Of a DNA stretch of 31,509 nucleotides, positions 221-28,757 are shown one piece after another. The number at the start of each line of letters is the position of its first letter. Within the stretch, counting starts at the first letter, position 1. The DNA comes from Gonapodya sp. JEL0774 (taxonomy: Eukaryota > Monoblepharomycota > Monoblepharidomycetes > Monoblepharidales > Gonapodyaceae). The position numbers were made by a program, and so were the translations under genes. The stretch spans positions 1-31,509 of the forward strand of contig JADIIX010000199.1 in the NCBI GenBank assembly GCA_027604505.1, given 5' to 3'. The notes beneath the pieces were generated by a model that ran no database searches, was not told the origin of the DNA, and saw nothing but the letters and a program-made list of their open reading frames with translations.

Positions 221-3150
221 CCAGTGGCAGCATTGAGAGTGAGGTGGTGTGGGATCCAATCCCAGCTGGGGCAGTTTTTCGGTTGAATGGTTATCAAGCT
301 GAGTACACCCTTGCAATCACAGAGCAAGCAGGCACTTACAGCAGCAAACCCAAACAGGCAGGAACAAGACAAACTGTGGAAGGTAGAGATCAGGGTTTAA
401 CATTGAATAATTCATTGTCAGGGAAAGAATGTGTTGTGAGCGAGAGTATGAGCTGCAAGAATGCTTCATGAAGATTGAAATTCTCCAGTTTTATTAGAAT
501 TGACTGTGGCACAGTGCACTCTTGGTGATAAACAGTGATTATTAAAAGGCCTGCCTATGTGGCACGGTTACGACACACATAATCGCATGTGCTTCCTAAT
601 TCTGCCACAATGATCACCTGTTGACTAATCAAAATAGCATCCAAGAGGCACAGTGAGACAAAACACTTATAAACCACTTGAAATGCAGTTGAAACCAGCT
701 CTAAAACATCATACCATCTTCTGTGCCCACCTCACCAAAGCTTGCAACCACAATTGTTCCCTTCCATAAGTACTGTGCTTGCTGCCATATGTTGCCATGT
801 GAACACTTCTAATTCTTCTTTTGCATTTGGGCCAGTGGTACTGGGAGCAACTGGTGGCCTGTGGCCACTGTTGTGCCTGTTGGCCTGAGGCTCACAGACA
901 CTCCTACCAAGGCAAGATGTACTGAATGTAGGTGCTACTCTACTGATTCTGTGGAAGGAGGGAGAATGCATGGGGCAGTTTCATTTGAGCTAATGCTTTT
1001 TTTCTCCATTTCAGTGGTTTTCCCTACCAGTACCTAAGGACAGTTGACCTGAGGCTGACAGCAACATGTTTTGTCAGTCAGACAAATGGCAAAATCAGGT
1101 GTATTTGGAATGAAATGAACACAAATTTTTACCCCAGCATCACTGTAGAATATTTTCTAGAGTTTTGGGTGAAGTTTTGCTATGTAAATTTGTCTCAAAC
1201 TCGACATTGTTTCAAATTGCAGATTCCTTTCTTTTGGACAGTTAATGGCAAACCTTTCACTTGCACTTGAGCGTCAGCTGATTGATGACAAAGCGTACAA
1301 TGAAACAGTGGACAAGACAGGAACGCAGAATACAAGCAGCCTGCCCCATCGCAAACTGCTTCACCGGCAAAGAATACAAGGTCCCAAGCATCCTCCACCA
1401 TGGTACCACACAATGAAAATGCCTCGGTTGAGTCAGATGCTGAGGATGGGTCTCCATCTCCCACTTGTAAGAGCTCAGGAGATGAAGCAAAAAGCAGGAT
1501 GATTATCAGCACTCCAGCTTTGGGTCAAAGGTTACTCATGCACTCTGAACATATCATTTTCAAAGTATATATCTTCAGAGAATAGATTTTGGCAAAGCAG
1601 ACACCCAGAAAGCCATGCAGCAATACCCAGGTGACCTCCCCCGTGCCGTGGAGTTTCTAGTCCAAACTGTGCGTGGGCAAGTGTGTATTGCATTCTGTTT
1701 TATCTGTATTCTTTGAGCTCTTGTTATCTCACTTCAAACTTCAACACCACCTGGCGGGGTTTAGGCAACAGGCATCACAGATTGCATCACAGGAACATTA
1801 CCCGCCGGGCCAAAGTGATTTACACAACAACAATGCCATCAACACCACGAACTTCACCTTGGAGGAGTCACGTACATGAGATACACAAAGAGCACGAGCA
1901 AGGAAAGAAAGCGGTCAATCCTTGTAGATCAAGTGGTGGGTTATATTTTTGCATCTACTTTCAGTTTTGGGCATAGTTCAGGAGAACTCATTGCCACAAA
2001 CTTTGTTTACCTGTAGTTTTCATGGGACCACTTGCACAGGACTTCAGGAACAGGCCTTTTTGATTGCTATCTGGTTCATCACAATGGAAAGGTGTGTTGT
2101 TGAAGTTGTAGGCCTGAGTTCTGTTGCTACTCATTGCTTGCGACAGATGGCGGAGATGAAAATGCAGTCTGTTCTTGACTGTAAGGAAGGATGGATCTGC
2201 CCATGCGCCAATCCTGCTTACAAATCAATGTTATTCAATAACTTTGCAGAGATAGCAGGAGATGATGAATCGGTGGTGTGTTTTAACAAAAAGCATGAGT
2301 GTGGGTGTATTTGCAGGTCTTGTGGAATGACGGGGTGTGGGATGAGAATCAGGGTCCCAAGTGTATTTGTGTATTCTGTGTGTCCAGTCCTGTCGGACTG
2401 CTATGTAAGCGCGTCATACAAAAATATATCTACACTACACTACGTCCCGCGTGTCAACTCAGTGGTCATACAACAGTCTCACTCATGCACAAATCCATGT
2501 CATCCTTTCCCAGGTGGTCACAGACCAAGGCATTGTAGATTGGGAATGCAATCATAAACACAGCAATGGTTTTGAAGATCTCGCCGCTGAGCTGAAACAA
2601 GCCAATCGGCGACGATCCGCTGTTTGGGAACCTCTGTGAGCTCGAAATTGGATGACATAGTGAGTTTGAATGTTTCCGCCTATTTGAACAATTTGGTTGG
2701 TGGCTGGGCAAACACCCGGTTATGACCAATTTGCCTTCATCCCGCACAGTTGTTGCAAACCGGCTCCAAAACTCTGCCATCTATATCACTGGCACACATT
2801 GATACATCAACTCCGCCCCACAAAAAGGCAGCGACCAACACAGATGGCAATTCTAGTTCTCTGTGCGCGTCCTTGATGCAATGGAGCTCCTTATAGTCTG
2901 GTTAGCAATTGCAGTCGCAAGAACAAACATGATTGTGACCCACACCAGTTGAAAGTCTATCTCCCCATCGGAATCCGCATTCAAGTCATATTCAAAGTCC
3001 ATGATGAACGGGCAGTTGACCTTGTAATGCGATAGAAGATAGAATTTCAAACATATCACGGAGGATGGGTGCTTGATGACTCCAAAACAGTTTTGAATTA
3101 CAATTAGGCAAAAACACTCTACAACTACGGTTAGTGCATCAGGAAACCGT
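221..3150. other. Gene-poor region, probably degenerate mobile DNA
   Basis: No gene could be assembled here. The reading frames are short, lack a consistent exon-intron pattern and resemble no family I know. Two stretches look somewhat more protein-like than the rest. About 1305-1585 (+) encodes a Ser/Asp/Glu-rich segment containing SVESDAEDGSPSP with no usable upstream start. About 1949-2557 (+) is an open, Cys-rich frame of 202 codons. Both could be remnants of transposon genes. Low coding content and the repeats at 1-220 make decayed transposon sequence the simplest reading. Confidence 0.45.
1305..1585 (+). pseudogene. Possible remnant of an acidic Ser-rich coding exon
   Basis: The frame ending at the stop at 1583-1585 encodes a low-complexity Ser/Thr/Pro/Asp/Glu-rich stretch (NTRSQASS, then SVESDAEDGSPSP, then SSGDEAKSR). 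This composition is usual for disordered regions of fungal nuclear or transposon proteins. An in-frame TGA lies just upstream of 1305, and the only in-frame ATG (1400) is internal. It is probably an isolated fragment. No family is recognised. Confidence 0.2.
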
Positions 3151-3174
3151 GGCTGGTCTCTGGGCCACTCCCGA
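3151..3174 (+). repeat. Left terminal inverted repeat of the transposon
   Basis: Begins GGCTGG and contains CCACTCCC. It matches the reverse complement of 9821-9843 at 20 of 23 aligned positions with one single-base gap. It is followed directly by three CAACTCC copies, as the right repeat is preceded by GGAGTTG copies, which supports a real TIR rather than chance. Confidence 0.6.
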
Positions 3175-3175
3175 T

Positions 3176-3352
3176 CAACTCCAAACAACTCCGCACAACT
3201 CCAGAGGACCGGGAGTAGACGGAGGCTACGGAGTGTCCGGACTCCAGACCCCCTACTCCGGAGTTGAATTTTTACCTCCTTTGCAACTCTGGGGTTGAAT
3301 TTTTCTCTCCTTTGCAACTCCGGAGAGACGTGTTTCTGTCCTTTACAACTTC
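3176..3352. repeat. Left subterminal repeats: 10-bp phased CAACTCC array and 31-bp tandem repeat
   Basis: CAACTCC occurs at 3176, 3186 and 3196, an exact 10-bp period. Further in, a 31-bp unit beginning GG(A/G)GTTGAATTTTT and ending TTTGCAACTC(T/C) occurs at 3260-3290 and 3291-3321, with a diverged third copy at 3322-3352. Each unit thus carries the motif in both orientations. Subterminal motif clusters are binding sites for element-encoded proteins in CACTA transposons; that role here is inferred. Confidence 0.7.
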
Positions 3353-3441
3353 CAACAGCACCTCCAGTCCACTCCAAATCGTTATTCATTCATAGAAATA
3401 TTGTATTTTCGTCTCTTTATGTTTGAAAGTACACAATAAAG

Positions 3442-5880
3442 TTAGTCTGTTCTTGGTTTCTTCGCGTAAAAAAGCCGATCCAACCCCTCTTCTTCGTTCA
3501 CATCAGCCGAGTTCTCCGCCTCACGCTTGATACCAGTACCAGTAGATGGATAGATCATGTCGCGTACGGTCGCTCGACTCTCAGGGTCCTGAAGAAACTT
3601 GGTTCTGAGAAAAGTCTCATACTGTACTTCAAGTTAGATATCAGATTCACTGCAACCAAGAGATGACAACACCTACGGTTTTCCAATCCCTCGCTATTTG
3701 TGCATCCTTTGAGAGGTTAAATCCATTTCTGTTAAGGGAATTCTTGAACTTCAGGTCCGGTTTAGAACTCGTGCGACAGTCATTGAACAGCAACAAAGGT
3801 GGTGGAACCAGACACTCACAATAACTGCTACCGACGCCATGATGACTGAGAGCTCCTCGTCGGTCCGATCCATAGAATTAACGTTGCAAGTGGGCATAAC
3901 TGATCGAACCATACGAAGAAATTGAGGGTTCAAGAACGGCCGTTCTTCGTCGTCAAGTAAGAATCTTGGAATGTTTTCAACGCGTGACAAAAGGTCTCTG
4001 CAAGAGCCAAGTTGGTTATCTTCATCTGCAAAGAGCACTTGCGAGCACCATATGTCATTGAGTACTCACCGGCTCCGTTGAGGCAGCTCATTGACACCGG
4101 CCTGCTTAGGGGCACTCAAATCTTGATATGCGACAGAGAACCAGACGCTGCCCTTCTCTTTTACCACTGCCACGAGATGGTTGGGCTTGGTCTCCAAGTC
4201 TCGCCGAATCTAAATCAAAGAAGAAAAACATCAGTACAAACTGCAGCTAAGAATTCTCACATTATAATGCGGGCGTTGTTAGCATATTGCCAGTTCTCTT
4301 GATCTGTGTACGGGTCTCAAATCGAAAATACGTTGCCCTCCGAGGACCGTGAACATGCATCACTCACCAACATAAACGCCGCCAAAGCCACTGAGGGGGG
4401 TAATGTTGTCTTGGTGTGTGCAGTTGCGCGCTGTAAAATAGACATTTCTGCAAATAGCATGTCAGAGTCCTCATCACTATGATGAGCGATGTGCTCTGGA
4501 GATGGGTTTCTAGAGCAACACAATAAAATATCATCTTTTCTTGACGCTGTAGAGTCAAAGTGCTCACTCACTTGAAAAGAACAAACTCCGCCGCCAGCTT
4601 TTGGATTTGATCCGCATTTTCCCAAATAGTTGGGTGACGAGACTTCAAAACCTCCAGCGGGATTTTCCTTTTTCCACGAGAAGATTTGCGGACAGTGTCA
4701 TCCTCATCTTCCTGCTCTCCAAATTGCATTGTGGGGGTTTGTTCAACGAATATGTTGCCTCCAAGAGAGAGGAAACCAACATGATCTCGCAGAATGACGA
4801 TCAGTGGACTGCATGAACTCACGATCCATCATCAGAACATTGGCTGGCATCACTGGTGGCAGTTTACCCAAGTTGCTTGATACCAGAAGTTTGGGAGGAA
4901 TCTCGTTGATTTGGACAGGCCGGCCTGGAGCAGGCTCTTGGATTGTGGAATCAAACGTAGGACAGAGGGATGGCGACACAGTCTCCTCGTCCCCGATTTG
5001 TGAGTTGTAGATGCATTCGACATCAGGCGTTTGTTCTCGCACCTTGAGATAAATTGAAAGAGCAGTGGTCCACATAAACGCACCGAGACCAAAGCCAATG
5101 ACGTTCTGTGAACCTGAGGAAACAATTTAATCAAGACACGCAAACCCACCCATGAAGTTTCAGGCAAACTGCACAGCCGATTCATTCCCAAAGGATCCTC
5201 CTGTTGGTACAGGGATTCGTCTTGGTTGTGCATCAAGGATGCAGTACTTTGCCAGTTGGTTGTCTGTTGAATAGATCTGATGACGTTGTTGCTTCCACCG
5301 ACCGCGCTTAGGGCACTAGACACAGTCTGCTGGCTTGACAATGTTAAACCCCTTGGATTCTGCGTGTTCTGTTGTGGGGTGGACAGTGCTGTCGGAAATG
5401 ATGAAGAACCTGCAGAAGCCTGCAACACCCATAAAATACCAATAGCAATTAGCGTCTGACACAAAATGGAGGTCCAGAAGTATATTAGTCCTGGGTTCTT
5501 ACTATTTCCCATGAAAACTGATTGTTTTCCTTGCCAGCGTCACCCATGTTGTCGCCACTGGTTTTGACTTTCGAAGACTTCAGATGGGTTGTGGATGCAT
5601 CCTTATTGTTCAAGCGCTGCATACTGAGCGGTTTTCTTGGGCCGTCGCTGGGAATCTGTCGGAGTGGTCATGGCGTAGCGGTGCCGTTTGGTGGGGTCAC
5701 GGGAGGCGGAACTTGCGGAAGTCCTCCCTGGACACGGTTTCTGTTGATTCTACCCGGCATAATCAAGGTTTGCTGTACAACTGCTTTGTCGATCTCAATA
5801 TCTGAGAGTTCTGTGAGTGATGGAGTTGGCAAAGGTTGGAAGTTTTCCATGAGCATCCGCGACCGTGCACGGGCCTCCAT
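3442..5880 (-). CDS. Unknown companion protein of the Plavaka-like transposon (598 aa)
   Basis: Ten exons keep one open frame: 5880-5701, 5655-5503, 5419-5146, 5113-4823, 4758-4572, 4509-4368, 4209-4070, 3997-3820, 3748-3677, 3621-3442. They sum to 599 codons including stop, and all phases agree. I recognise no family. The N-terminal 200 residues are Ser/Gln/Asn/Pro-rich. One hydrophobic segment (about 206-225, VIGFGLGAFMWTTALSIYL) could be a membrane helix or a buried core. The middle has a basic patch (RKSSRGKRK) followed by PLEVLKSRHPTIWENADQIQ, then an acidic stretch (HHSDEDSD). The C-terminus ends AKKPRTD, resembling a nuclear localisation signal. It is divergent from the transposase gene and inside the same TIRs, so a role in transposition, for example end binding like TnpA of Spm/CACTA elements, is plausible but unproven. 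Some splice sites are guesses. Confidence 0.6.
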
Positions 5881-6083
5881 TCAAATTCAAATGCTTAAAT
5901 TTTCGCAATATACACTTGTTATTCAGCATCTCTCCATCATCAACCCGGATCCGAATGTCGTCAGCCAAAAGTTAGTGTGAATTTTGCAAGGAGTATTTCA
6001 CATACTTAACGCAACATCAGACGAAAGACCGAAGATGTTCACTGGCGCTTGCAAACCTCCAAGAATCCCGCCTGGCATCAATA
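5881..6083. promoter_or_regulatory. Shared divergent promoter between the two transposon genes
   Basis: Only 203 bp separate the start codons of the leftward unknown gene and the rightward transposase gene, so the interval must contain both promoters and 5' UTRs. No clear TATA box is seen. The arrangement suggests coordinated expression. Confidence 0.45.
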
Positions 6084-9000
6084 GTGGCACCTCAGACATG
6101 TGGAAACCCAGATTCCATAATGGAGGATCGCGGGGTCTCTCCAGGAATAGGTGACGATATGATGGAGCAGGACTCACGGCCCCAGATCACACAGATGGGA
6201 GACCAACAGGATGATGCATCTAGGGACATGTTTGAACCAATTTATTATGCTGAAGGGCAAGATGAAGGGAATGGTCGGACAGAGTGGCATTCAAATCGTC
6301 CCACTCCGATCGGACATCAGACCAAGGAAGAGGATCTCCGAGGACAGTCATTCTCGTTTTTAGAGCGTGAATTGATATGTCTATACACAGATTACGACCT
6401 GTCTCTTGGTATCATGGATGATATCATCCAAATCATTCAACACCGACAAACAACTTTGTCGGAACTACGGTGGCCCAATGGAAGGCAGATGAACGACAAT
6501 TTACAGAAGCATGCGGACAATGTGGGACTGAACGTGAGTGCAATATTATTATGGGATGAGGTGTGTTGTTACTTCTTGTTCGCAGGCACCCAAAACCGAA
6601 CGCATATCTATTGGTGACACCTCCATTGTTCTCACATCTCACAACGCTGCGGACGTGATCAAGAAAGAGTTTGGGAAGCCCCAGTATGCACCGCATATGC
6701 TCTATGAGCCCCGGAAAGTCACTACCAAAGGTGGAGAGCGTACATACAGTGAATTCCAGGATGGTGATCTGTTTTGGGAACTTCAAGTAAGCAACTCTTC
6801 CTGCTAGTGTAATTATGGGTCCTCTGCTCACAGTGGCTGTCAGGGTTCTGTCCCCCGTGGTGGACTTGTCTTGGGCATCTTCATCGCAAGTGATGGGACA
6901 ACAACGGATGGACTCATGCGGGTGAAGGGGAGTAAAACTTGTAACTACAAGTGTCTCAATCGTGGGGACAAACTTATAATTTGGCCACAGAAAGTTCCTG
7001 TTTACCTGGCTCTCGCAAATCTTCCCAAGCATCTTCGCCGGCATTGCCTCGTCTTGCTAGCGATTGTGCCGGAACTACCGGAGAATCTCACCCCATCAGA
7101 AAGACAGTCGCTGTATCATAAATGCTGGAGTGTTTTGTTGGCTCCGCTTGTGGACGCTGCCATGAAGTGAGTTTGCAAAACCACATCTCACGCTGTGCAT
7201 ACATTGTATGCTTATGCTTTTCAACCACAGCGGAATTGAGATTGTTGGTCCAGATGGCCGGATATGGCTGGCATTCCCTCGAATTGTTGGACTTGGAAAA
7301 GCCTATCCGGAGGGGTATAGTAAATTGTGTTTGCTGCTCACATTTCCTCTAACAAATGTCCTTTTTGCACACAGAATTCTACTGGGTGGGCTCCAACAGG
7401 GCCAATCTTGCTTTAACTGTCTGGTTAAGGCTGTTGACTTCTCTGACCTCGTGATCATGTTGAGGAACAATCAGTTTGGCCCCTTGAAGCGTAAAGCATT
7501 AGTACCCCGAAAGGCACTTGAAATGCGAGAGGTTAGTGGCTTTGTGTAGAAGCAACGTTTGTGTCGTAGACGTCCTGCTATTAATACAACACTCTTGACA
7601 GTTATGGCATCAGGGTCGCGAACTGATAGAGAGCCGAGGTATTACAGCTGCAGAGGAATTTGCCGAACAACATGGAATACAGCTTGAAGATGTAAGTGCT
7701 CTCTGTTCTTACTTTCTAGGCTATGGTGACCTGTTCACTCTGATCTCCTACAGATTGCTCTTGATGCCGTCCTATTTTGTGATGCCTATCCCTTACTACG
7801 GGGTGATATTCTCCATGATATATGGAGTGGTGTTCTCAAGAGATGCATCGAGATTATCGTACGCGTCATCAAGGAGGCTGCGTTTGAGGACAATAACAGT
7901 GGCAAAAGACAAGCAAATAATGTCATACGTGGACTTAACAGACTGTGAGTTGGAAAATTCATATAGGGGACCCGAGACTACTACAATGCCTTGCTATGTC
8001 TCCCACACATGGCGGGGTGTCTGAAATTCCTCGATTTCCAGGAGCCCTCAGGTTTACAAAGGGCTACTTTGATGTCCTCAAAAGTGCAACTGCCACTGAA
8101 TACAGAAACATTGCTATGGTAAGCAGTCTTTTCATTTCTTCACCTACTTGAATACGTCTACATGTCTCTTTTCCACTAGACTTCTCCGTGTGTTCTTGCC
8201 AGCTGGGGATGCGTCGGAGAAAACATAAGAGAAATTGATCTCCAAGCATTTGTTGTACCATGTCTGCGTCATTTGACTGATTTTGGTGTGATAATGTCTC
8301 TCGATTGCATCCCATCTGACATGCTTGACGAGGCTGACGAACACCTGCGGCAATTTGTGATCCACTCAAAGCAGATTGATGGACTCTTTTTGGAACGAGT
8401 CTGGGCAGTGAGTACCTACATCCTCAAATGCGGCCACTGATCTCTGTTTACTTCCGGTTTCAAAGGTGCCTAAAGTTCATGAACTCCTCCACTACCGAGA
8501 ACACGTCCTTGACGGTGGTAGCCCGGATAATTGGAACTCAGATGCTTACGAGATGGGCCACCAGAAACACGTGAAGGCACGCTATCGAACTTCTAACAGA
8601 CGCCCGGACACAGTGGATGTTCAGGTAAAGTGGTCTCTAGTGTTTTCCACACTGTTGGTTATGGATGAACCTCTCCCATAGATACTTAATCGTGATCGCA
8701 TTCATGATGCGTTCACTGAACTCCCCACTCCCAATGAAGATGGAGTTCTGTTGGATTCCGTGGACAAAGACGAGAATGAGTCTGGATTTGTGTTGTTTCG
8801 GGCAGGAGCGTATCACCTTGGAGGCCGTAAAACTGGAGGTGCAGTTACCTTACTGGACTTTGTGGAGTCTGACGATTGTCTGAGTGGAGCTGGGGTCAAC
8901 TGGGATGAGATTCTCCGAACAAAGTACCATCAAATTGAATATGGCAAGCGATGGTGGCCGCACCGCCGTGGAAGGGTTCCACACCTAAATGAACTGGAAT

Positions 9001-9550
9001 CTTCCTTTGTGAGTTCTCATGGGGTTTACGTTGTCTGTTTGAAGCCTTACAATCTGTGACCCAGTTCACAACCTACGTTCTCTCTCGGCAGGTAACGCCG
9101 TACACCCGCATTTTTGTCTCACAACGTCCACGGCATCAGTTCGCTCGACCCTCTACAATGTCAATTCGGGCAGTTCCAAACTGGTATGGCTCGGAGTGGC
9201 GGCTGGCAGTGGCCGTATCAACGGACCTTGGACCTCAACACCCTTATTTTGCCGTTGCCCTCCGCTTCTTCACCAACAAGTTTCACGGCAAGAACTATGG
9301 ATGGGCAGCAATTCGATGGCTCAAGTTTCGGGAGATTGATGCGAGGGTGACTGGATGTTGGAAGGTGGCAGCGGATGCATATGACATCATTCCGATAGAG
9401 ACAATCATTGGACCTGTTGGTTTATGCCCCGACGCTAAGGAACAGGAAGCTGAGGACTTGAGCAACGGATTTTACAAGCTGTACTACCTGACGAAGCCAA
9501 ACCGTGACGTATGGATGTGGTTTCGATGGTTGGAGGGAACGCGAAGATGA
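6084..9550 (+). CDS. Plavaka-like (KDZ/CACTA-related) transposase
   Basis: Twelve exons: 6084-6533, 6586-6786, 6844-7166, 7231-7314, 7375-7531, 7602-7691, 7754-7944, 7977-8118, 8180-8407, 8466-8624, 8682-9008, 9092-9550; 936 aa with no internal stop. Blocks recalled from Plavaka transposases occur in the usual order: GLVLGIFIASDG then PVYLALANLPKHLRR (exon 3), VGPDGRIWLAFPRIV (exon 4), a CFNC motif (exon 5), RGDILHDIW (exon 7, about residues 451-459, matching the family's D-x-L-H-Q block), IPRFPGALRFTKGY (exon 8), and PKVHELLHYREHV then GHQKHVKARYRTSN (exon 10; family consensus near E-x-LHID-x-AKD-AYRATN). It would cut and join DNA at the element ends in the nucleus. Departures from the consensus, such as the missing Gln after LH, suggest a diverged subgroup. 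The first exon is acidic, has no zinc finger and could start elsewhere. Confidence 0.8.
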
Positions 9551-9699
9551 CTTCGAAAACTTTCCTTATTCGCAGCTATATTTAATAGTACTTCTAATAA
9601 TTACCGATGTATTTTTGTAATCCAGATTTGAATATGTGCAATATCATAGAAAAAATTATTGTTCGCAACAACAGAAACTCGGAGAAATTTGAGAGGAGC

Positions 9700-9820
9700 A
9701 ATAGGTGTCACCTATTGGCTAGCGAGGCGTAGGGAGTATACTCGGAGTTGCCACGAAGTGCTTATGGAGTGCCAGGCAACTCTGTAGAGGCGTTGGCACT
9801 CTGGAGTTGACGAAGTGGGG
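9700..9820. repeat. Right subterminal GGAGTTG/CAACTC motifs
   Basis: GGAGTTG occurs at 9744-9750 and 9803-9809 and CAACTCT at 9778-9784, with further GGAGT copies nearby. The orientation is mostly opposite to that of the left array, as expected for paired transposon ends. No gene is visible between 9551 and 9820. Confidence 0.55.
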
Positions 9821-9843
9821 TCGGAGTGGGCCGGAGGCCAGCC
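9821..9843 (-). repeat. Right terminal inverted repeat of the transposon
   Basis: Read on the minus strand it starts GGCTGGCCTC and matches the left repeat at 3151-3174 (20 of 23 aligned positions, one gap). It ends 54 bp before the proposed start codon of the next gene. Confidence 0.6.
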
Positions 9844-9897
9844 GATGTGCGTGACACGAACATCCCTGCACGACAAAGAAAACCGCCAGAAGAAATA

Positions 9898-11267
9898 ATG
9901 CGAGCAACAACTATGGAACCAGAGAAGCCCGCCTCCGAGAAATTGAAGAACACAAGCAAACGCTCTATTTCGACTCGAGAAGATCTTCCGTCGGGTGAGG
10001 TGGCAAGCTGGTTACTGCATCAGGTCACAATGTTCACAATCGGCGCTCCACCGATTCCTTTCGTGAAGTGACGGAACTCCGGATGAAAGCTGTTATTGCG
10101 GCGGAATCTAGGAAGAGAAAGGCAGAGGAGACAGAGCAGGTATTTTCCAGAACGCTAATTGCAGCTGCGAAGAATTTCCAAGTTTTCAACACTTTCCGGA
10201 ACACTCCACGACTCTTTCTCGTAAGCCCGCAAAAAGATTGCGTCAGAGTATATCTGCGGCAGAGTCTCGCTCTTCTTCTCCCGTCTCCGACGAAGATGGT
10301 GGCGAGATGACCCCACTTGCGAGAGTAGACACTTACGGCAATAGTGGATGGGTGTGAGCCTCGTTTAAAGTCACTTCCCTAATTCTTTCTTCTTGGTATT
10401 GCTAATCTCGCAGTTCTGCACGGGTCCTAGTTATCAGTGCCCTCCCTCACATGTTCCCATTCAAATTTCGTCGGACCCCACCAGCAATCCTTTTGACGCA
10501 GCAAACATGATTGGTACTGCCGGCGAAGACAAAGAACTGTGGATTATGAGAGTTCCTGCACATGTGAGCTTTTGCAATAACCATGTCGACTGTTCCTTTT
10601 GAGTACAATTCGCATGATCAAATTGCATATCCCATTCAGATTCCCCTCGCGCATCTCATCTCTCAGTTAAATATTCCACTTTCCCATATTGAAGACTCAT
10701 CAGAACCGCTTTGCCTGATCGAAGCTCCTGCGCCGACACCTCCAGGCTACCGTGGCCCCACTACCAACGAAACATACGCTCTGCTCGAAGCTAGTAACGA
10801 ACGCTTGGCGGGTGCACCAGTCATGGAGCGTTTAAAATGTTTGGTTCCAGATGGGGAGGCTGGGAACCTTGTTCTCGGTACGTGTCTACGTATCCAAATG
10901 GTCTTATCTCACGGTTACCATTAAATAAACGTTCGAATCACTGAAAATGGAACAAGCCCCAATCCCGACAGCTAGATATCTCGAAATCTTACCCAATATT
11001 CCTGGCCTCCCTTCTTCTTCCGACGTCGCCACCGCCGGCCGGCGAGCAAAGCGGCGGGTGGCAGGTGAGAGAGCGACAATGACAGAAGCAGAGAAGTACA
11101 GGAACCAACTCATAGGCAAGATTCAGGTGGGAAGGGTGGGGAGTGCTGAAACGCCTGCTGGGATAAAAGCTGGCAAAGTAGAGATGAAGAAGGAGAAGGA
11201 TAAGGGGAGGGATCAGGACACCAAAGCGAAGGGAAGAGCGAAGGAGATGAACGTTAGAGATAGGTGA
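9898..11267 (+). CDS. Possible RNA polymerase I subunit RPA34.5-like nuclear protein
   Basis: The 3' exons are clear: up to 10351, 10414-10563, 10640-10877 and 10957-11267. The product has a disordered, basic N-terminus (KPAKRLRQSISAAESRSSSP, then an acidic VSDEDGGE), a middle domain containing KELWIMRVPAH and IPLAHLISQLNIPL, a segment GNLVLAPIPTARYLEI, and a very basic Lys/Arg-rich tail ending at 11267. RPA34.5 (yeast Rpa34, human CAST) has this order: a KELWLI-x-x-P block, a late block near K-LV-x-AP, then a basic tail. It pairs with A49 in RNA polymerase I. The resemblance is from memory and weak. The 5' exons (9898 to about 10160) are unresolved: two or three frames are open and no single splice solution is forced. 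An in-frame upstream ATG at 9826 lies inside the transposon repeat. Confidence 0.5.
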
Positions 11268-11566
11268 TAAGGTGGAAGTCTGCGACGCGGGGCGCTGGGC
11301 CGGGAGCCGTCAGCAGGGTCGGAATGCTCGTTCCAACATGAGCGATTGCCCCGCTGTGAACAGTACATATATTGCTTGCGGTTTGCACTGTCTCCTCAAA
11401 TTTGGTGGACAGTTAGAATGGCTCTACACGACTTCATACATTTCATGCCATGTTTTACAAGAGCGGATCGATACGTTATTGTTTGCGATGTGAGCGTTGC
11501 TTCCGGTCACGGTCTGTCGGAAACGAACCAGCCGAGAATTCAGAAGCTCATCCGTCCTCAACCGGA

Positions 11567-13926: not shown

Positions 13927-14202
13927 CTTGTTTCATGCCCAAGCCATGAATGATAGATGCATGATCTTTGGTTATGTGAACACCTCATTTTGACTCCAAT
14001 CATGAATTTATTGGTGGGACGTGAACATGTTCGTGTTGTGCACTCGCCAAGTCCGAACGGACCATCCAACGACCACCACCACAAAACTGGGCGAGTTTTA
14101 TCGCACCGCTCCGCTTGCCACACCGCTACAAAGATCACCAAAAGTCGCAACTTCCGCAGAACCTTCTTTGAACCCCATATCATCAAGATTTTCTGAAGCT
14201 CC

Positions 14203-14952
14203 ATGACTGTCTATCCATCACCAGCGGCGCGACTCTCCAGTCTCCGCGCCCGGGAAGTCTCCGAAACGTTTGGGCAGATGCAATTCCTTCATTTTTGGGG
14301 TCACAAACCGGATCCTTCAGGCGCAGCTACCGTATCGTGCTTCAGTCAATTCTGGCCCGCGCCATTCGTTGTCGACGGGATTTGCTATCCAGCGGCGGAG
14401 TGGTTCATGATGGCTGGGAAAGCTCGGATATTTGGAGATATGGAGAATCTGGAAGCGATTCTCGCAGCCACGAAACCCGGTGCCGTCAAGAGTCTGGGGA
14501 GGAAGGTCACACCGTATGACGACGATGTATGGTCTCGCGAACGATACCAAGTTGTTGTGAGGGGGAACTTGGCAAAGTTCTCCCAGAACATTGCACTAAA
14601 GGAGTTCCTCCTCGCAACGGGGGAAAAGATACTCGTTGAGGCCAGTCCTCTGGATCGCATATGGGGAATCGGACTTGCGAAGACTGCGCCTGAGGCGGAC
14701 AAACCCTCGCAATGGAAGGGTCTAAACTTATTGGGATTCGCGTTGATGGAAGTCAGAGAGCGTTTGCGGGCTGGCGAGGAGTTGACCACACAAATATCAG
14801 AGACAAGTAATGGCGAAACCAGTCACAGTGGAGAACGCAACAATCATGTTGGGGGACATTCCGGCGTTGATTCAATTGACAACGACGACGGTGAACGTTG
14901 CGCAACTAGTAGAAAGCGTGATCGTACGTCTCAGAAATCCCGTTTGGGGTAA
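14203..14952 (+). CDS. NADAR-domain protein (YbiA/DUF1768-like)
   Basis: A single exon of 249 codons. Residues about 28-190 contain the NADAR signature in order: FWGHKP, SCFSQFWPAPFVVDG, YPAAEWFMMAGKARIF, KSLGRKV, GNLAKFSQN, LLATGEKILVEASPLD and IWGIGLAK. Characterised NADAR proteins such as bacterial YbiA are N-glycosidases acting on ADP-ribose-linked or riboflavin-pathway intermediates; the substrate here is unknown. A polar tail of about 55 residues follows, rich in Ser/Thr/Asn/Asp and ending with a basic cluster (SRKRDR) that could direct it to the nucleus. It is intronless, unlike its neighbours. The start at 14203 places the domain at the usual distance from the N-terminus. Confidence 0.9.
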   Translation: MTVYPSPAARLSSLRAREVSETFGQMQFLHFWGHKPDPSGAATVSCFSQFWPAPFVVDGICYPAAEWFMMAGKARIFGDMENLEAILAATKPGAVKSLGRKVTPYDDDVWSRERYQVVVRGNLAKFSQNIALKEFLLATGEKILVEASPLDRIWGIGLAKTAPEADKPSQWKGLNLLGFALMEVRERLRAGEELTTQISETSNGETSHSGERNNHVGGHSGVDSIDNDDGERCATSRKRDRTSQKSRLG

Positions 14953-16637: not shown

Positions 16638-19600
16638 CTACGTCAGAGTGAGCGCCCAGTTATTGACAGCGGCGTATTCGGGTTGGAATGCTGAAAGAAA
16701 ATGGAAGAGGTGACGAAAGATACCAACGAACGGGAACTTTCTACAAACCTCTCGCCATGTTCCGATTGTAAGACGCAAGACCACTGGACCATACATATTT
16801 TGAGCGATCAAGCTCTGCGGGAAGCGCACGACGTGTGAGGAGGTACTTGATGGTCTGCATAATTGTACACATTCGGTTGTAGGAACATCTGATGCACGGT
16901 GACCACATGCGAAGCCGCATCCCCACCTTTGCCCACAAATCATGCGTTTCCCTCGAATCAGCTCGGAGCCTGAGACCTCCGCGCCCTGCCTCGATGGGGT
17001 GATCTACTGTTGACAGCACGAGAATTGGCACTGACGTCGACCTGACCGACTCATCGCCACGATGTTTTTCCTTGGATGGTACCTCAGAGTAGACGGCCAA
17101 GATGGTTTCTGTGGAAAGTTTGCATGAAATTTTGAATTCAACAATATTAACAACGATACTCACCATCCTTGATCTCTTCGTCACTGAACTCGGCCTTGGT
17201 CTTATTCTTGCCCTTGCTCTCCTTGCCACGATTGTACATGAGCGTCATGGTTGCAATATCAATCCAGACAAATCGACGCTTGGTGCTTCCTCTAAGTGCT
17301 GCAAACAGCCCGCTCGAGGAAGTCATGAACTCCATGTACTCGCCTGCTGCAAGCATGTCGATTGCTTCGGCCAGATTCGAGCGAGAAGGTGGAGACGCTG
17401 GCGGAATTGGCAGTGGACTCCGGTAAGAGCCAGTTGAACGGACGGATAAGTCTGGGGACGGAGCTCGAGCTCTGGATGCAGAATCCGATAGTCCCAATTC
17501 ACCGCGGAGCGACATCTCCCTTACTACAGGTCCCACTACCATGGTCTCCTTTCTGTCAAGATTTTCGTGGAGAGATGAAGCTGCTGCGCCGTCCGCGTAG
17601 TATTCCGCACTGGAACGACGAGACCGGACGGGGAGACCATCAACAGAGGGAGCTTTGCGGATTGGAAGCTCATCGATTGCGCGACGATTGTAGACAGCGG
17701 AATTCCTACTCGCGCTACGTGGTGGTGGAATCGCAGGAGTAACTTGCACCGATTGTTCAGTTGGAGGCCCTCTAATACCCATTGCCGAGCGCATTAAATC
17801 AGAATTGCCGATAAATATCGGGGAGCCTTGCCCCTGATCGGCTGCATCCACATCGCGGAGCGTGGCAGCCGATGGACCGTCGGGGATCATTGCCGAGCTT
17901 TCTTGCGGCCCCACGTTCCGCTGCAGCATCATGACAAATAATATTAATGGCTGTAAAGACAATCAGTCATTGGACAAGAGAAGTGCACTCACAAGTGTCT
18001 GGTTGCCCACAATGGGAGATTCGGGCTCCGAGTTCTCCACCCTTGAATGCCTGTTCCGCTCATTTTGGAGTTCCTTTATCAACTTTTCCTTTTCGGCGAT
18101 CTCCGCCTCCAAGAGAGCGAGGCGCGAGAGGTGTGCGCTTTGTTGCAGTTCAAAGTCAGTCATCAGCTCTTCGGTTGATAGCGCAGCAGCAACAGCATCT
18201 GGTTGAGAGCCCATCTCCGCGATCTCCACGGTAGCTTGAGATCCGAACGACACCATATCCGGTTTCGGATCACTGAGATTGTCTTGTGTGGTGGCGTCGT
18301 GCCGCTCGAAATTTGGAGCCTACAAATGTCAATGGTTACCAAACGGGATAAGTGCTTCAATTATGACGGACGATTACGACTCCGATACGAACCGAAAGAT
18401 CAGTTTGAGCCTCCATATTAACATTTGGGGTAATGTCTTTCAAGTCGGGAGAAGCAGAACGAGAGTCAGGACCTTCCTGCTCGTTGCTCGTTCCCAACCG
18501 AGGCCTTATGGGCCGATTCCTGCGGCCCTCCCGCAGGTTCTCAACTTCAACTCGGAGTCTCTCGTTCTCACGATGAGCCTCGTCAAGTTCCCTCCACTTA
18601 GCCGCCTCACTTCCTCCCCGTGCAGCGACCTCAGCAAGTCGCTGGAGTCGGACTTTCTCCTTTACGGACTCGTCAAGCTGCGCCTGCAGTTTCTGAATCT
18701 GCTCCAAAAGGTGAGCTGAACGGGCTGTGGGGGCAGCAGAACTTGGGGGCATGTTTCGGAAATCTTGCTGATTCACTTTTCCCTGAAGATCTTGAAGACG
18801 TTGCTCGTACATGGCCGTCTGTGAAGCATGGGTCTGAGCTTGCTCATTCAATGTGCGATCTCTCGCGGCGACGGCTGCCTCGAGGTTTGCGACTGTCGCT
18901 TTGGCGGTTTCAAGCTGCTTCCCAAGTTGCAAAGCTTCCGATTCGGCCCTGGCCTTTTCCCGAGAGATTTCAGCAAGACGCTTCTCGTTCTCTGTGATAT
19001 CTCGCTGTCGGGAAGCTGCGGCCATCTTTGACTCTTCCAGCTGACGCCGCAGATCTTCTTGATTCGTGTAGTTCTGCTGGAGAAAATAACGAGCCTGATC
19101 TGCTGCTTTCCAGCCTTCGCGTGCGGTTTCCAGGTCTGTGAGAAGAGATTCCGTTCGGGTGGATGATTCTGTGAGCTGACGATCCGAGATGACACGATGT
19201 GCTTCCAGTGTCTCAACCGCACGCAACAACGTATTCTTATCTGCTTCCAGCCTGTCAATTTGAACTTGCTTGTCGCGAACATCTCGCGATAAAGCGTCAC
19301 GCTCTGTTCTCAAAACAGAAAGTTGGATCTCAAAGAACGATTGGTTTGACTGGATCTTCTCTAAATTAGTCAAGCTCTCCTGCAGCTTGCTTTCGAGCTC
19401 CGACACCTTCTCTGTCTGCGTTGCGAGGGATGTTTTGAGGCCAGCGATTTCTGATTGGGCCACAACCTTTGTTCTGGTATTCTCATCGACAGCAGCGGTA
19501 AGAGACGCTTTGAAGTTCGCCAATTCCGCCTCCGTAGCACCTTGCTTTTCTCTGGCAGCATCCAGTTGTGCAAGAATATCTTGCCACTTCGCTCTTTCCT

Positions 19601-22600
19601 CGAGAGTGGCAGCAAGTTTGGATTCGGCAACCTCTGCTGACCGCTCCGCGTCTTGTTTCGCGATATCCAAGGTGGCGAGCGCCTCTTCCAATGCAGTCTT
19701 CTCTGCGCTGAGCTCCAAGAGTTGCAGATCCTTGCCGCGGGTTGTCGCCAAAAGGGCGTCGCGCTCCGACCGAAGACTCTCGTTCGAACTTTGGAGTTCC
19801 GAGAATGACGATCGCAAAGTGAAGATCTGCTCTTGAGCCTCGCGGAGCTTGCTCTCCAATTCCAATGCACCAGCCTTCTCCTCTGCCAGAGCATCCACCA
19901 ATTCTTGAACTTCTATCCGGGCCTTTTCTAGATCCTTTGCTCTATCAGCGTTATCCTTTTCCAGAGATAAAACCAGACGCTCCTTCTCAGCAACAGCGTT
20001 GCCCAGCATTGCTAGACGTACAAGTTCGCCCGCTTGCAGTTCCATTGCAGTGGCCTGCTCCTTAGAGGATCGTTCAAGTTTTTCCCGTCTACTCCTTTCA
20101 TCCTCCAATTCTACGGTGAGTTGCTTCAACTGGGATCCGTGATCGCTCAAATTGCGCTGACTAGTGGTGAAATCGTTCTCCATAGCATCCAGACGCTGTT
20201 GTCGATGGGCCAGCTCCAGTTCTAGAGCAGCGAGCTTCTCAAGGGACCGTGTTTGGGTGGCGATGGTCTCCAATTGTTGCTCCACCGTGGCATTCAAAGC
20301 CGCGATCCGGTCGAATGCCGATTGGGCAGACGCATCCCTTTCCCTCAAAAATGTCTCCAATTCACCAATACGAGCGTCTTTGCTCGGACCTACTTCCTGC
20401 AACACGACAACCCTCTGCCGTAAATCGTCCAACTCCCTGGCATGGGCAGAAAGGGACTCCGCTAAGCTTGCAACCTCTTTATCACGGACATCCAATTTGT
20501 TGGACTTCTCCGCGAGCTCAATGTTACGCCGAGCAAGGTCGGATCGAAGAGCAATGCCAAGCGGGGTTTCGCGCTCAATGGTCTCACGAAGAGTCTGAAT
20601 TATCGCGTCCTTTTCCAAAGCGGCAGCCTCGCTACTAGCAAGCCTCTCTTTTGCGACAGCGACCGCCGACTCGAGATTATCGATCAAACCCTGTAAAAGA
20701 GCAGGTAGGTTGAGTACGACTGATCGCAACTCTGTAGAGCAGAATCTTTATCGTACCTGCATATTGTTGATTGTCGTGGATTGCGAAGCAATAGTCGCTT
20801 GAAGAGCAGCTACAGTATCAAGTTGTTCCGCAAGTTTCTGTGAATTATCTGCAAGGTCAGCGGTGACACCGTCAAGTTTCACTTGCAAGGCTATAGATAT
20901 TAAGAAATTTCAATTAGAACACCGTTCTCAACATTGCAATCGGATTACATTTAAGGCAGCAGACCGCTTACCTAGTTCTTTTTGGGCACTTTCCTCGAGG
21001 TCTCCTCTGAGTTTATCGATCAATGCCTCACGTTGGATACCCTTGGCTTCCTCCTCTCTCATCTTCCTGTCAGATTCCTCAACCACCCGCTCAAGTCTGA
21101 CAACTACAAGTCTTGTTTCCTCCATCGCCTTGGCTTGCGCTCCAACTGTCGCCCGTAGCGCCAACAAATCGTCCTCACGCTGCGCCATAATCACCTCCTT
21201 CGCTTGAAGCTCGTCCCTCAAACGGTCGATTTCCGCCTCACGATCATTGCTCTCATAGCTCTGCCTGTCCAACGTCGCTCGGAGAGTTGCCATCACAAGG
21301 TGGCGCTCTCGTCCCGAATCTTCCTCCCGCCTGAGGCGATCCTCCAGCTCATTCATGAGCGCAGTGCGAGCTTCCTCTGCCTCATCCATTACCGATATTC
21401 GCTGAGCGAGGACAGCCATTTCCCCTTCTGCTGCAGCTTTCCCTTCTAGGGCTTCTTGGAGGGCGCTTTGAAGTTCCAAGAATTTTTTATCTTTCTCTTG
21501 AATAGCGGACTTCATCGTCACGAGATCAGCCTCAAGCTGTTGCACCTTCGCTAAACTCGCTTCAAACTGGAAGCGAGCATTTTCCGCCACTTGATGGGCT
21601 TCATTGAGATCCCTCATCTTGTCCGCCTCCAATCCAGCAGCAGCAGCTACCGCGGATGCGAGAGCTGCCTCTACCTCCCTTGCCTTGACCGCTCTTTCGT
21701 CTGCGACTTTTTCGAGTTCGGAAAGTTTGCCTGCAAGCACTTCGATCCGCTCTGTCATTGTCCCAACCACGCCTCGGTAACCATCCCTCTCCTCCTCTAC
21801 TCTTCTCATCGCCTCAGCGAACTCCGCTTGATTCCTTTCACCCTCGGCCATTTCCTCTTTCAACTGGGCCAACTTCTTCTCAAGCTCAGCGCGTGCTTCT
21901 CCCTGCTCCGCCGCATCGCGAGCAGCCCTTTCAGCTTCCACGCGGTGAGCTTCCGCTCTCTCGCTTGCATCTTTCAAACCCCGCTCGGCCATCGCACGTC
22001 CAGCTCTTGCAGCTTCGTGCTCAGCGGCAACGGCAGCGGCATTCGCCTCCATCTCGGCAACTTTGGCTTGTTCAGTGTCCAGCTTTTGCGCCACGATACT
22101 CGACATAGCCTCTGCTTCAGCTCTGGCTCTCTCCATACGCTCGCGCTCCGCGTTCGCGATTTCCAGCTCGGCGGCCTTAGTGTCCCTTTCTGCTTCAGCG
22201 GCTGTCCTCTCTGCTTCAAGTGTCTCAATTTGCAAGCCCCGTTTTTCCACCTCGGCAGTGGCCTTTGCAAGATCCGCTTCAGCCTTCGCAACCGCGGCCT
22301 TGAGCTCCTCTGCCTCCTCCTTTTTCGATGCTAACCGCATTGTCAACGCCGCAACTTCCAGTCGCAACGTGCGACTGATCGAGTCTGCTTCGGATTTTTG
22401 ATCCTCTAGTGAAGTTAACTTCACTCGCATCTGTGCAGACTCCACTTCCAAAGCACGACGATCTTCAGCCCGTGCAAGCGTATCTCGCTCTAGAGCCTCA
22501 AGGCGCTTCCTCAATTCAATCTCGTGTCGCTTGGCGTCCCCGAGCTGAAGCTCCAAAACGTCCCGGTCGGATTCCGAACTGGCCAGACGTGTTAAGGTTG

Positions 22601-25600
22601 TCGTTAGCTGTTCGTCCAGGTCTTCAACAAGACGAAGAAGATGAGTGAGTCGGTCATCACGACGAGACAAGCTGAGTTTCGGTGGTAAAACGAGGGGAGG
22701 TGAGAGCCTATTCACAATTAACAGGATTTGGTGGCACATCGAAGCTTACTCACACTTCTCTGAGCCCATCCATACCCCGTCCAACGCCCCCTTCAGTAGC
22801 ATCACTTCCCAATCCACTCAAACCACTTAAGCCACTCTCCATACTGCCCCTGCTACTTTGTGTATCGCTACGTCTCAAGTTCCCGCCCGGCGATAACCAC
22901 GAGCGCACTGCACCAGCATCACGAAAATCCACGGGGTTGGGATAAGGCGATGCAAGACTTGAAGAAAGGCTGTGAAGACTCGCAGCGCTGGCCAGGCTAG
23001 ACCGCTCGGGACTCCTCGATCGACCACCGTAACTACCAAGTGGTGGAGGGTAGCTCGAACGGTCCCCGCTTCCTCTTCGACCTGTCCTTCCATGCTGTGC
23101 CTGTCGCCCGGTCTCCAGCGCCCTCGGATCTTCTCTCAGCAATCTGGCGTCCGGGTGTAACTCGTTGGCACCAACTGCGACACTGGGTACTGGAACAGCT
23201 GCGCTCCTAGGCGGAGATCTAGTGGGCACGATACCGACACTCGACAAATATGACAGTGGTATCGCGGAGGCTGCAGCGTACTGTGCATTGTGGACCGAAG
23301 AGTAATCCGGCGACCGTACGTTGATCCTCGGTGCGCCTCCTGGAACTGGTGCGGACGGAGGTCTTGACATGCTAGAGGCCGCAGAAACACCCGCATGGGG
23401 AGTTGTGGGACTCGGAGGCCTGAGCGGACTTGGAGATCTTGGGCTCGTAGGGCTCATTGGAGTTTGGAAACCAAAAGCAAATTGCGGAAGCTGAAATCGG
23501 GGCAGATCGTCCAGATCTGAGCCAGCCGAGCTGATCGAGTCCCGATCAGAATTACCCGAATGGTATTGAGGAGAAAGGGCGCGGGCGGAAAAGGATGATA
23601 CCGAGGCGGACCGGGCAGTCGTGTAAGCCGAAGGGGAGGTCGGACCAGACGTTGAGCCAGCAGCCGAAGTTGTAGGAGAAGAAGGGCGAGAAGAGGTACG
23701 AGGTGGATGATGGGTAGTAGGAGAGGAAGTGAGGGGTGGAGCTGAAGGAATGTACAGTGTAAGCACATGTGGAATGCGAAGACACCCGTCATAAAAGATA
23801 TGAAAGTGATTAATTGAGGCTATTGCAAATTCTCTCATGTATGTGCTCATTGGAGGTTCAGGCAAGAACGCCACACCAAGGACTGGTTGCGCCACTCGAG
23901 ACCACACAATTGAGTGCTCTCCAATCCGGAAAATGCGTACAGCACCAAAACTTCCCCAAAAAATATCACAAAAACACCTTACAACGAAAGATCGAAAACT
24001 CCGAGGCCCACATTCCAACGATCCGCTCCCCGGAATAATACGCCAATGACTGCCAACCACATGCTATTCTGATAGCTCACCTTCCATAACCGGTACACCT
24101 CGAACCTGTCCCACATGTTCTACTCCTCCAGAGTTTCTGTAACCTTGTCCAGTAACCGAGCCTCCAACGGAAATAGATGCGGCGGAAGATGTCACGTAAC
24201 CACCCGGAATTCGAGGGCTTGAGATAGAAGGCGACGTTGGATATCCAGTTGATGTAAGCGAGGATCGGCGCGGTGGGGGCTGAAATCGCAGTTTTGTTAC
24301 GGGGAGGGAACGACAAGGTTGGTTTGGGTTTGGGAGATGAACAACTGTCAGTGATTCAGCTAGCTGGCGGACCACATAACAACAGGCAGTCCTCCACGTA
24401 ATCTGACTCTAGATCGAGACAGAATAGGATTTTGAGCGCTCCTGGATTTGAGTGCCATTCGGTAACCGACTTTCCCATTTAGGAATGATAAACACGCCAA
24501 CAAACTTTACAACCCCAAAACCCCAAGCACAGTCAAAAAATAGCACCTTCACCCATTCAAATGAATCTCAAACGTATTGATCTGGCTCGAATCCGATCCA
24601 TTGCAGCCTCATGAAGGATTCCCAGAGATATCAGCCACTTACCTCATCCCAACCCGTCCCACTCCTACCCCTAGCAACGCTGCCCTCTCCTTCACTTTCA
24701 CTTCCTCCATCTAGAAAGCTGGAAATACCACCAGGACCAGTCCCGATACTCATCAACTCGTCTTGCTCTCTCACACCAGAGTTATGCCGTGAGGCCCAGT
24801 TAGGGGCTGTTGGAGATCGCGCTCGGGGATATGGGCCGGCACCCGGAGAGCCTGTCGGGGAGCGAGGCGGGGGGAACACGAGAGGCGCGGGGGGCATGGT
24901 GGGCGTTCGAGGTCCTGGGCCGGTATGGGTGCGGTCAGAGTATGTCGAAGTCGGTCGCGGGGATGATGAGCTGGAGGAGGAGGACGGGGGACGAGGTCCT
25001 AGCAGTAGAGATGCCGGGTATGGACGTTGATATGGTGGGAATGGACGAGCGTGGGTCAGCCAGACCGGAATTTCAGGAGATCGGAAGAAGCTCAACGGTC
25101 TCGCTTGCATCCAACGGACCATGTACATCCACCTCATATCACGCAACTTCCTATTTAGAATTGAGCGACCCACGGTACGATCTCCAATACTCCGAATTAT
25201 CGATCAAAGCAGACAGCGAAATGACCACCTTAAAAAAGATGGTGGTGTGCACAGATGGGCGGCCTCCGTTTCATGGGCTTATGTCACGTTCCAGAAAGCT
25301 CTCGATTTCAAATTTCATGTGTTCATCACATGTTTCACAGCACTCCCAGGGGAGGTGACCTGTTGCTCCCAACACTCACCAGACCCACTCCCCGACCCGT
25401 GCAACCCCGTCCCGCCAAATTGGCCCGTCTCAGACGCAGATAGCCGTTGAACAAAGTCGCTCAAAGTCCATCTCGAGTCCCTTTGCTGTGTACTTTGTAG
25501 CCCTACAATCGTGTGAGGTGGAGACGGGGAGATGGTCGTAGAGGTGAGCGAGGCGGCAAGTGACCGCGTGGGCGTTGAGAATGAGGATTGCATGGATGCC

Positions 25601-28158: not shown

Positions 28159-28757
28159 CAAGTTTGCTCCGTACCAATTACTTCACTCATTTGTAGATCT
28201 CGTATGTAGCGACCTCCTTCGATAGTCTTCTCTGCGTTTGCGAGGCCCTCAACCTGTCCTCCAAGAAAGTTTGAGCCAAACTCAGTTTGGCGCTGTCCCC
28301 GACAAGTGTTCAGGCCAACTTTCCACAATGCAAGCAACTCCACGTTTGCGATTAACCTTTGTCGAAGTCGTCTAACTTGGAGATGCTCTCTTGTCGGCGC
28401 TCCATATTCACTCCGGCGGCAATCGGCAGACGGCTGTTGAAAGGCTCTTACTATCAACTTATTGCTCGGCCGCTGTGCAGCTCGCCGACGATATTGAGAA
28501 TGCTCTCTTGTCCAATTCAGCTTCCGGTGAGGATCAGTTCCTTCATTCCAGCTAGTTATGACTCGGAGAACGTTATACGGGAACTTGGAGCCTCACAGGA
28601 GCTTATCTGATCTGACTAGTCCTCATTTCGCTGGTTGCTTAATGCTGAATGTTCCGTATGCATGTTATTGAATACAGTTTGAGTTCGAGCTGGATGACAA
28701 GTGGTGCACACCCCTCGCCCCACATCCGCCAAGCACTCAGGCACCATCATCCCATCG

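Follow-up and report, generated by a model that had tools for sequence, protein, structure and literature searches.

According to passages of Kojima 2025 (PMC12730594), PlavakaB transposons produce target-site duplications of 2 or 3 bp and end in 5'-CATCA..TGATG-3'. Plavaka elements have already been reported, in passages of two further papers, from Rhizophagus (PMC11075540) and Amoebidium (PMC11244446), so their presence outside the Agaricomycetes is not new as such. In the maize transposon En/Spm, as described in passages of PMC2613891, the protein TNPA binds subterminal repeats and is needed, together with TNPD, for transposition; TNPA and TNP1, its counterpart in Tam1, show little similarity. 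We analysed a 31,509-bp stretch of DNA (the window), which is the whole of contig C199 in the assembly of Gonapodya sp. JEL0774 (25.0 Mb, 381 contigs), and found in it a 6,711-bp element with two divergent genes that, judged by its sequence, fits the PlavakaB ends and duplication, bar one base in a shortened right end. Its host belongs to the Monoblepharomycota (chytridiomyceta), and not to the Agaricomycetes, the setting in which a first-pass annotation of the window had placed such elements.

We consider it rather probable that three statements hold jointly: this is a two-gene PlavakaB-type element, its second gene has a helper role, and the copy in the window is probably defective. The observations that carry this reading are the boundaries of the element, the position of both genes inside them, shorter copies that share those ends, coding sequence conserved between copies, and a diverged element of contig C73 that is laid out alike. 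The element and its ends are as follows.

3137..9847, no strand assigned: whole PlavakaB-type element, 6,711 bp, both ends common to copies on C115, C200 and C183 of the same genome
3135..3136, no strand assigned: left target-site duplication, TG; flanks GGTTAGTG and TGCGTGAC
9848..9849, no strand assigned: right target-site duplication, TG, from the end alignment
3137..3171, plus strand: left terminal inverted repeat, starting CATCA, from an alignment of ten ends
9823..9847, minus strand: right terminal inverted repeat, from the same ten-end alignment; core 18/21 against the left end

The ten aligned ends come from four copies (window, C115, C200 and C183) and from the C73 element, and their alignment placed both the terminal repeats and the TG duplication. 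Judged by the sister copies, the element begins at 3137 with CATCA and finishes at 9847 with GATG, 14 bp and 4 bp further out than the ends at 3151 and 9843 given by the first-pass annotation. Those two positions, at which the GGCTGG core of each inverted repeat begins, mark the inner edge of the repeats. Inverted repeats are indeed present at both ends, with a best ungapped core of 18 of 21 bases (20 of 23 aligned bases in the first-pass annotation); its score of 27 was reached by none of 4,981 random place pairs (best 25). The left CATCA is exact, and the right GATG is preceded by C and not by T as in TGATG. Duplications of 2 bp flank the window element (TG), the C183 copy (GG) and the C73 element (CT), and in C200, whose right end is altered, the duplication may be of 3 bp (GGA).

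Searching the Gonapodya genome at the DNA level with window positions 3100-9900 as the query, we recovered three other places that carry both ends: C115:42228-43226 (about 1.0 kb), C200:26323-27684 (about 1.4 kb) and C183:12365-14797 (2,448 bp), the last with the ends CATC..TGATG. Neither of the two outcomes that the first-pass annotation named as refuting it was seen: other copies exist, and not one of these three has an end lying between the two genes. This copy number is a lower bound, as a copy on C157 runs into the contig end. No second full-length copy of the window element was recovered from the assembly. In a pattern search, the end motif matched exactly at five places, each of them an end of the window element or of C115, C183 or C200; when two mismatches were allowed, there were 52 forward and 66 reverse matches, compared with 42 and 42 for the reversed control.

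The copy on C115 is the most informative about gene content. Between the same ends, it keeps a 3' portion of the leftward gene, 94% identical to window 3481-3796, and the last stretch of the transposase gene together with the right end, 89% identical to window 9485-9843. In the outermost 149 bp of the left end, identity to the window is 93%, and its junction sequence has no match there. Because 3' parts of both genes sit between the same two ends, C115 is a deletion derivative of a two-gene element, which places the leftward gene inside the element. The copies on C183 and C200 are 86% alike over about 1.25 kb, mostly absent from the window element; as they also share its ends, they form a small non-autonomous family.

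3442..5880, minus strand: second gene, about 594 amino acids with our own N-terminus (5880); 523 amino acids in the nr model (9 exons, first codon 5622)

The divergent minus-strand gene announced by the first-pass annotation is thus present, and its predicted 598 codons in 10 exons were approached: our own N-terminus, joined to the nr model through a first junction with a weak donor, gives 594 amino acids. The nr entries for the two proteins of the window are HDU93_003172 (523 amino acids, second gene) and HDU93_003173 (872 amino acids, transposase). For the second protein, no Pfam match was reported at E<=10, a search whose filters drop most weak matches. A PDB profile search for homologues returned one match, to an unrelated protein (E 0.23).

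The same two-gene plan recurs in the C73 element (L014:1740-8459), which spans 6,720 bp and has ends that enclose a Plavaka transposase gene and, to its left and in opposite orientation, a divergent gene of 631 codons in our own model. Matches that begin at 1740 (C157), 1739 (C39) and 1745 (C55) mark its left end. No other copy confirms its right end, which we accepted because the inverted repeat scores 32, as against at most 27 for 4,933 random pairs, because the left end is fixed by C157, and because the flanking CT duplication fits; by length alone, this repeat is not among the longest chance matches. The transposases of the two elements are 29% identical in their alignment. Their second proteins show a weak similarity that is colinear in the C-terminal half (blastp E 0.001 in a one-to-one comparison, with one of 500 shuffles as good or better).

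Two observations concern the surroundings of the C73 element. Adjoining it, at L014:5-1064, lies the last part of a further Plavaka transposase, cut by the contig end. Its left flank (L014:1653-1739) is itself repeated, in C5, C39 and C121, and since the match in C5 ends exactly at 1739, C5 may hold an unoccupied relative of the C73 insertion site.

These comparisons bear on the alternative that the repeats have trapped a gene of the host, or that the leftward gene is a nested element in its own right, and that it plays no part in transposition. In favour of this are the lack of a Pfam domain, the failure to recover a relative outside the genome and the weakness of the similarity to the second gene of C73. 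Its matches in the Gonapodya genome at E<=1, however, are confined to the window, C115 and one short, weak match on C108 (E 0.096); its 3' part recurs in C115, identically placed between the shared ends; and a divergent gene with colinear, if weak, similarity occupies the corresponding position in C73. We therefore hold a captured or nested gene to be very improbable, and take the second gene to be a real part of the transposon.

Coding conservation between the window and C115 was assessed over the two gene-bearing stretches, excluding the outer 149 bp of the left end and setting aside gap columns (6 in the second-gene stretch and 24 in the right stretch). In 213 bp of second-gene coding sequence there were 8 changes, distributed 1/0/7 over the three codon positions (binomial p 0.0026); six were synonymous and two non-synonymous, one of the latter being a stop in C115, and the sole indel was of 6 bp. 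The transposase tail had 1 change in 66 coding bp, as compared with 30 in 297 non-coding bp. Pooled, coding sequence had 9 changes in 279 bp and non-coding sequence 36 in 400 bp (Fisher p 0.0027). As coding changes are rarer than non-coding ones, purifying selection seems to have acted on both genes during the divergence of the window and C115 lineages, although the numbers are small. Of the recent activity or selection proposed in the first-pass annotation, past selection on the family is thus visible, but it is no proof of recent activity of the window copy.

Both ends of the window element are also lined with short repeats.

3176..3347, no strand assigned: left subterminal repeats, comprising a run of CAACTCC every 10 bp (3176-3203) and three units of 31 bp (3255-3347)
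9744..9809, no strand assigned: right subterminal copies, inverted, GGAGTTG at 9744 and 9803

The motif, which was picked by eye before counting, occurs on either strand 7 times in the outer 400 bp of the element (240 and 160 bp), where 0.12 are expected, as compared with 9 occurrences in the remaining 31,109 bp of the window; the shared subterminal motifs of the first-pass annotation are therefore enriched near both ends. By analogy with TNPA and its subterminal repeats, we propose that the product of the leftward gene is most likely a helper protein acting on these CAACTCC-rich repeats, to which it would perhaps bind near the ends. As TNPA in maize En/Spm, the helper might pair or mark the ends, and perhaps regulate the element.

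The second gene could also serve the element otherwise, as a silencing antagonist or as a regulator that does not bind DNA. Some PlavakaB families carry TET/JBP dioxygenases, proposed in passages of PMC12730594 to be silencing antagonists, and the second protein has no recognisable DNA-binding domain in Pfam, a point that also tells against the helper role. On the other hand, the Pfam search, with its filters against weak matches, reported no TET/JBP or other match at E<=10 in the second protein of either the window element or C73, and the window element does carry subterminal repeats such as TNPA-type proteins bind. Such another role seems to us possible but doubtful, and we retain the helper role as the preferred reading.

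The transposase gene and the points at which it may be damaged are as follows.

5955..9550, plus strand: Plavaka transposase gene; 12-exon open models from ATG 6120 give 908 or about 933 amino acids
5973..5975, plus strand: in-frame TAG before a zinc-finger-like segment (5976-6038), from comparison with the C73 transposase N-terminus
7301..7303, plus strand: codon for alanine where the second catalytic acidic residue is presumed to lie, from alignment to C73; assigned by spacing
7945..8051, plus strand: intron 7, with an uncertain 3' end; frame-keeping acceptors at 7976, 8051, 8084 and 8105

The product matches the Plavaka domain PF18759 well above the cut-off of 26.3 bits (92.8 bits for our own model, 104 for the nr model) and, with both genes lying inside shared ends, this bears out the two-gene Plavaka-like transposon of the first-pass annotation. 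Our own model has 12 exons and 908 codons, starts at ATG 6120 and is open throughout; it replaced an initial set of dynamic-programming gene models with doubtful introns. The nr transposase also starts at 6120 and uses the acceptor at 8051 for intron 7. If this intron is taken as 32 nt (7945-7976) instead of 107 nt, 25 codons are added, giving about 933, and the segment so kept is one that we take to resemble other Plavaka proteins. The 12 open exons announced earlier were thus recovered, but not the exact figure of 936 codons. Intron 7 had itself been a candidate lesion, which was dropped, as it has four frame-keeping acceptors, one of which (32-nt intron) retains the segment. A scan of viral contigs for homologues found none.

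The open frame reaches back from ATG 6120 as far as 5976, where the TAG at 5973-5975 parts it from ATG 5955. The segment 5976-6038 reads C-x2-C...LTQH...C and aligns with the N-terminus of the C73 transposase, where this zinc-finger-like start is open and has a C2H2 match below the cut-off (13.6 bits compared with 25). In-frame introns of 57, 93 or 114 nt from a donor-like GTTAGT at 5971 could skip the TAG, as could two further introns with poorer donors, but every one of them removes most or all of the segment; the zinc-finger-like start is therefore lost either way, by the stop or by the intron.

As read from the sequence of the nr protein, the motifs C330-x2-C333 and H563-x3-H567, with a glutamate 20 residues later, are present, which supplies the C(2)C and H(3-4)H motifs between the second D and the last E. 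Candidates for the first catalytic D and the last E are also present, whereas the presumed second position is Ala314: in alignments, the residue 16 before C-x2-C is alanine in the window and aspartate in C73. From the spacing in RAG1 (D708, C727, C730), which we assume to apply here, we infer that this alanine sits at the second catalytic position.

The firmest of the three lesion points is the right terminal repeat, which is about 10 bp short in comparison with the left end and with both ends of C115 and C183; C200 retains those roughly 10 bp at its left end and partly at its right end. Taken together, the short right repeat, the lost zinc-finger-like start and the alanine make autonomous activity of the window copy unlikely. 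The contrary possibility is that the element is intact and autonomous, starting at ATG 6120 or splicing around the TAG, with a short intron 7 and a working right end. In its support, open frames of 12 exons, 908 or about 933 codons long, can be assembled, which tells against a defective copy; in addition, introns from GTTAGT 5971 could skip the TAG, the nr protein begins at 6120, and the transposase tail is conserved relative to C115. Yet the right repeat remains short, no open model that we could join includes the zinc-finger-like start seen in C73, alanine occupies the presumed catalytic position, and the assembly holds no second full-length copy. As intron 7 can keep the frame and the TAG can be skipped by an intron, we raised our estimate for an intact element, which we nevertheless consider unlikely, and lowered our overall confidence. 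The word 'intact' in the first-pass annotation thus finds weak support at best: open frames exist, but the shortened right end, the lost zinc-finger-like start and the alanine at the presumed catalytic position speak against it.

We accordingly prefer a decayed two-gene transposon as the best account, noting that the alternatives above are not mutually exclusive. On this reading, the element belongs to the Plavaka group of cut-and-paste DNA transposons, in the CMCT clade, and is of the PlavakaB type by its ends and duplication, with two divergent genes whose 5' ends face mid-element. The rightward gene encodes a DDE-type transposase; the leftward one would encode the helper, and the window copy would since have decayed, being now probably immobile by its own transposase.

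Several results weigh against parts of this account. No empty site was found: the right flank has no second match in the Gonapodya genome, and in a search with the left flank (1000-3136) the matches in C7, C56 and C169 stop at 3132, 5 bp short of the element. C56 was considered as an empty site and rejected, since the sequence beyond the match is unlike the right flank of the window; C56:1-3000 matched the window only in left-flank pieces and in one 23-bp stretch elsewhere. Neither C115 nor C200 has a clean CATC..GATG pair with matching 2-bp flanks, and a 2-bp duplication alone is weak evidence. For the relationship between the second proteins of the window and C73, phmmer gave E 0.0058 and the best of 500 shuffles outscored the real pair; tblastn with the window protein on C73 reached E 3.3 at best. 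CAACTCC is absent from the outer 250 bp of the C73 element on either side. Protein searches, each scoring about 8,000 word-sharing candidates, returned the window's own two proteins and no relative outside the genome, although such searches are blind to diverged proteins and give no evidence of absence, and single-sequence AlphaFold models were unusable (mean predicted local distance difference test scores of 33.7 and 32.3).

The element is inserted where a cluster of repeats ends: most of the left flank (1000-3132) is made up of repeats that match many places in the Gonapodya genome, and the stretch without a second match on the right extends over 9848-11400. One left-flank repeat unit of about 155 bp (window 2321-2478) has 18 matches listed elsewhere in the genome, some of them partial. 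Further along the window are an open frame with a NADAR domain (14197-14949, plus strand; PF08719, E 9.4e-52), three long adjoining open frames of 796, 605 and 437 codons from stop to stop (18357-24063, minus strand), the first matching a coiled-coil kinetochore model below the cut-off, and an open frame with a DUF2427 match (28698-29399, plus strand; E 3.3e-12).

The window copy itself is fairly ordinary, being probably a worn transposon. What it adds is a record from an unexpected phylum, the Monoblepharomycota, of a PlavakaB-type element whose ends are defined, and evidence from sister copies that this element includes a second, non-TET gene on which selection has acted. The main text of Kojima 2025 (PMC12730594) contains no occurrence of Gonapodya, 'monoblephar' or 'chytrid', no PlavakaB-type element from Monoblepharomycota is described in the passages of the Plavaka literature examined, and among the matches listed for transposon literature on Gonapodya or Monoblepharidomycetes there is no title on such elements. 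We would suggest only tentatively, and with some doubt, that Plavaka elements of chytrid-like fungi regularly carry a divergent gene for an end-binding helper.

With PlavakaB the element shares PF18759, a CATCA left end, a GATG right end, a 2-bp duplication and the C-x2-C and H-x3-H motifs; it differs in its host phylum, in a second gene without a TET/JBP match, and in the alanine at the presumed second catalytic site and the shortened right repeat of the window copy. The assignment is made by ends and duplication, protein searches having yielded no PlavakaA or PlavakaB references. The C73 element resembles it in the divergent two-gene plan, the 2-bp duplication, a related transposase and a weakly similar second protein, and is unlike it in the low transposase identity, a different subterminal sequence and the open zinc-finger-like N-terminus. 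Compared with En/Spm (CACTA), it has CATCA instead of CACTA and a 2-bp instead of a 3-bp duplication, and its second gene is separate and divergent, whereas En/Spm uses alternative splicing of one transcript, with no sequence relation of the second protein to TNPA shown. The two have in common the wider clade, two proteins, short motifs reiterated inside both ends, and deletion derivatives, which in En/Spm can be mobilised in trans (passages of PMC2613891). If Plavaka elements of chytrid-like fungi do regularly carry a gene for such a helper, the transposase-plus-helper plan of plant En/Spm would also be native to Plavaka, and perhaps old in the CMCT clade.

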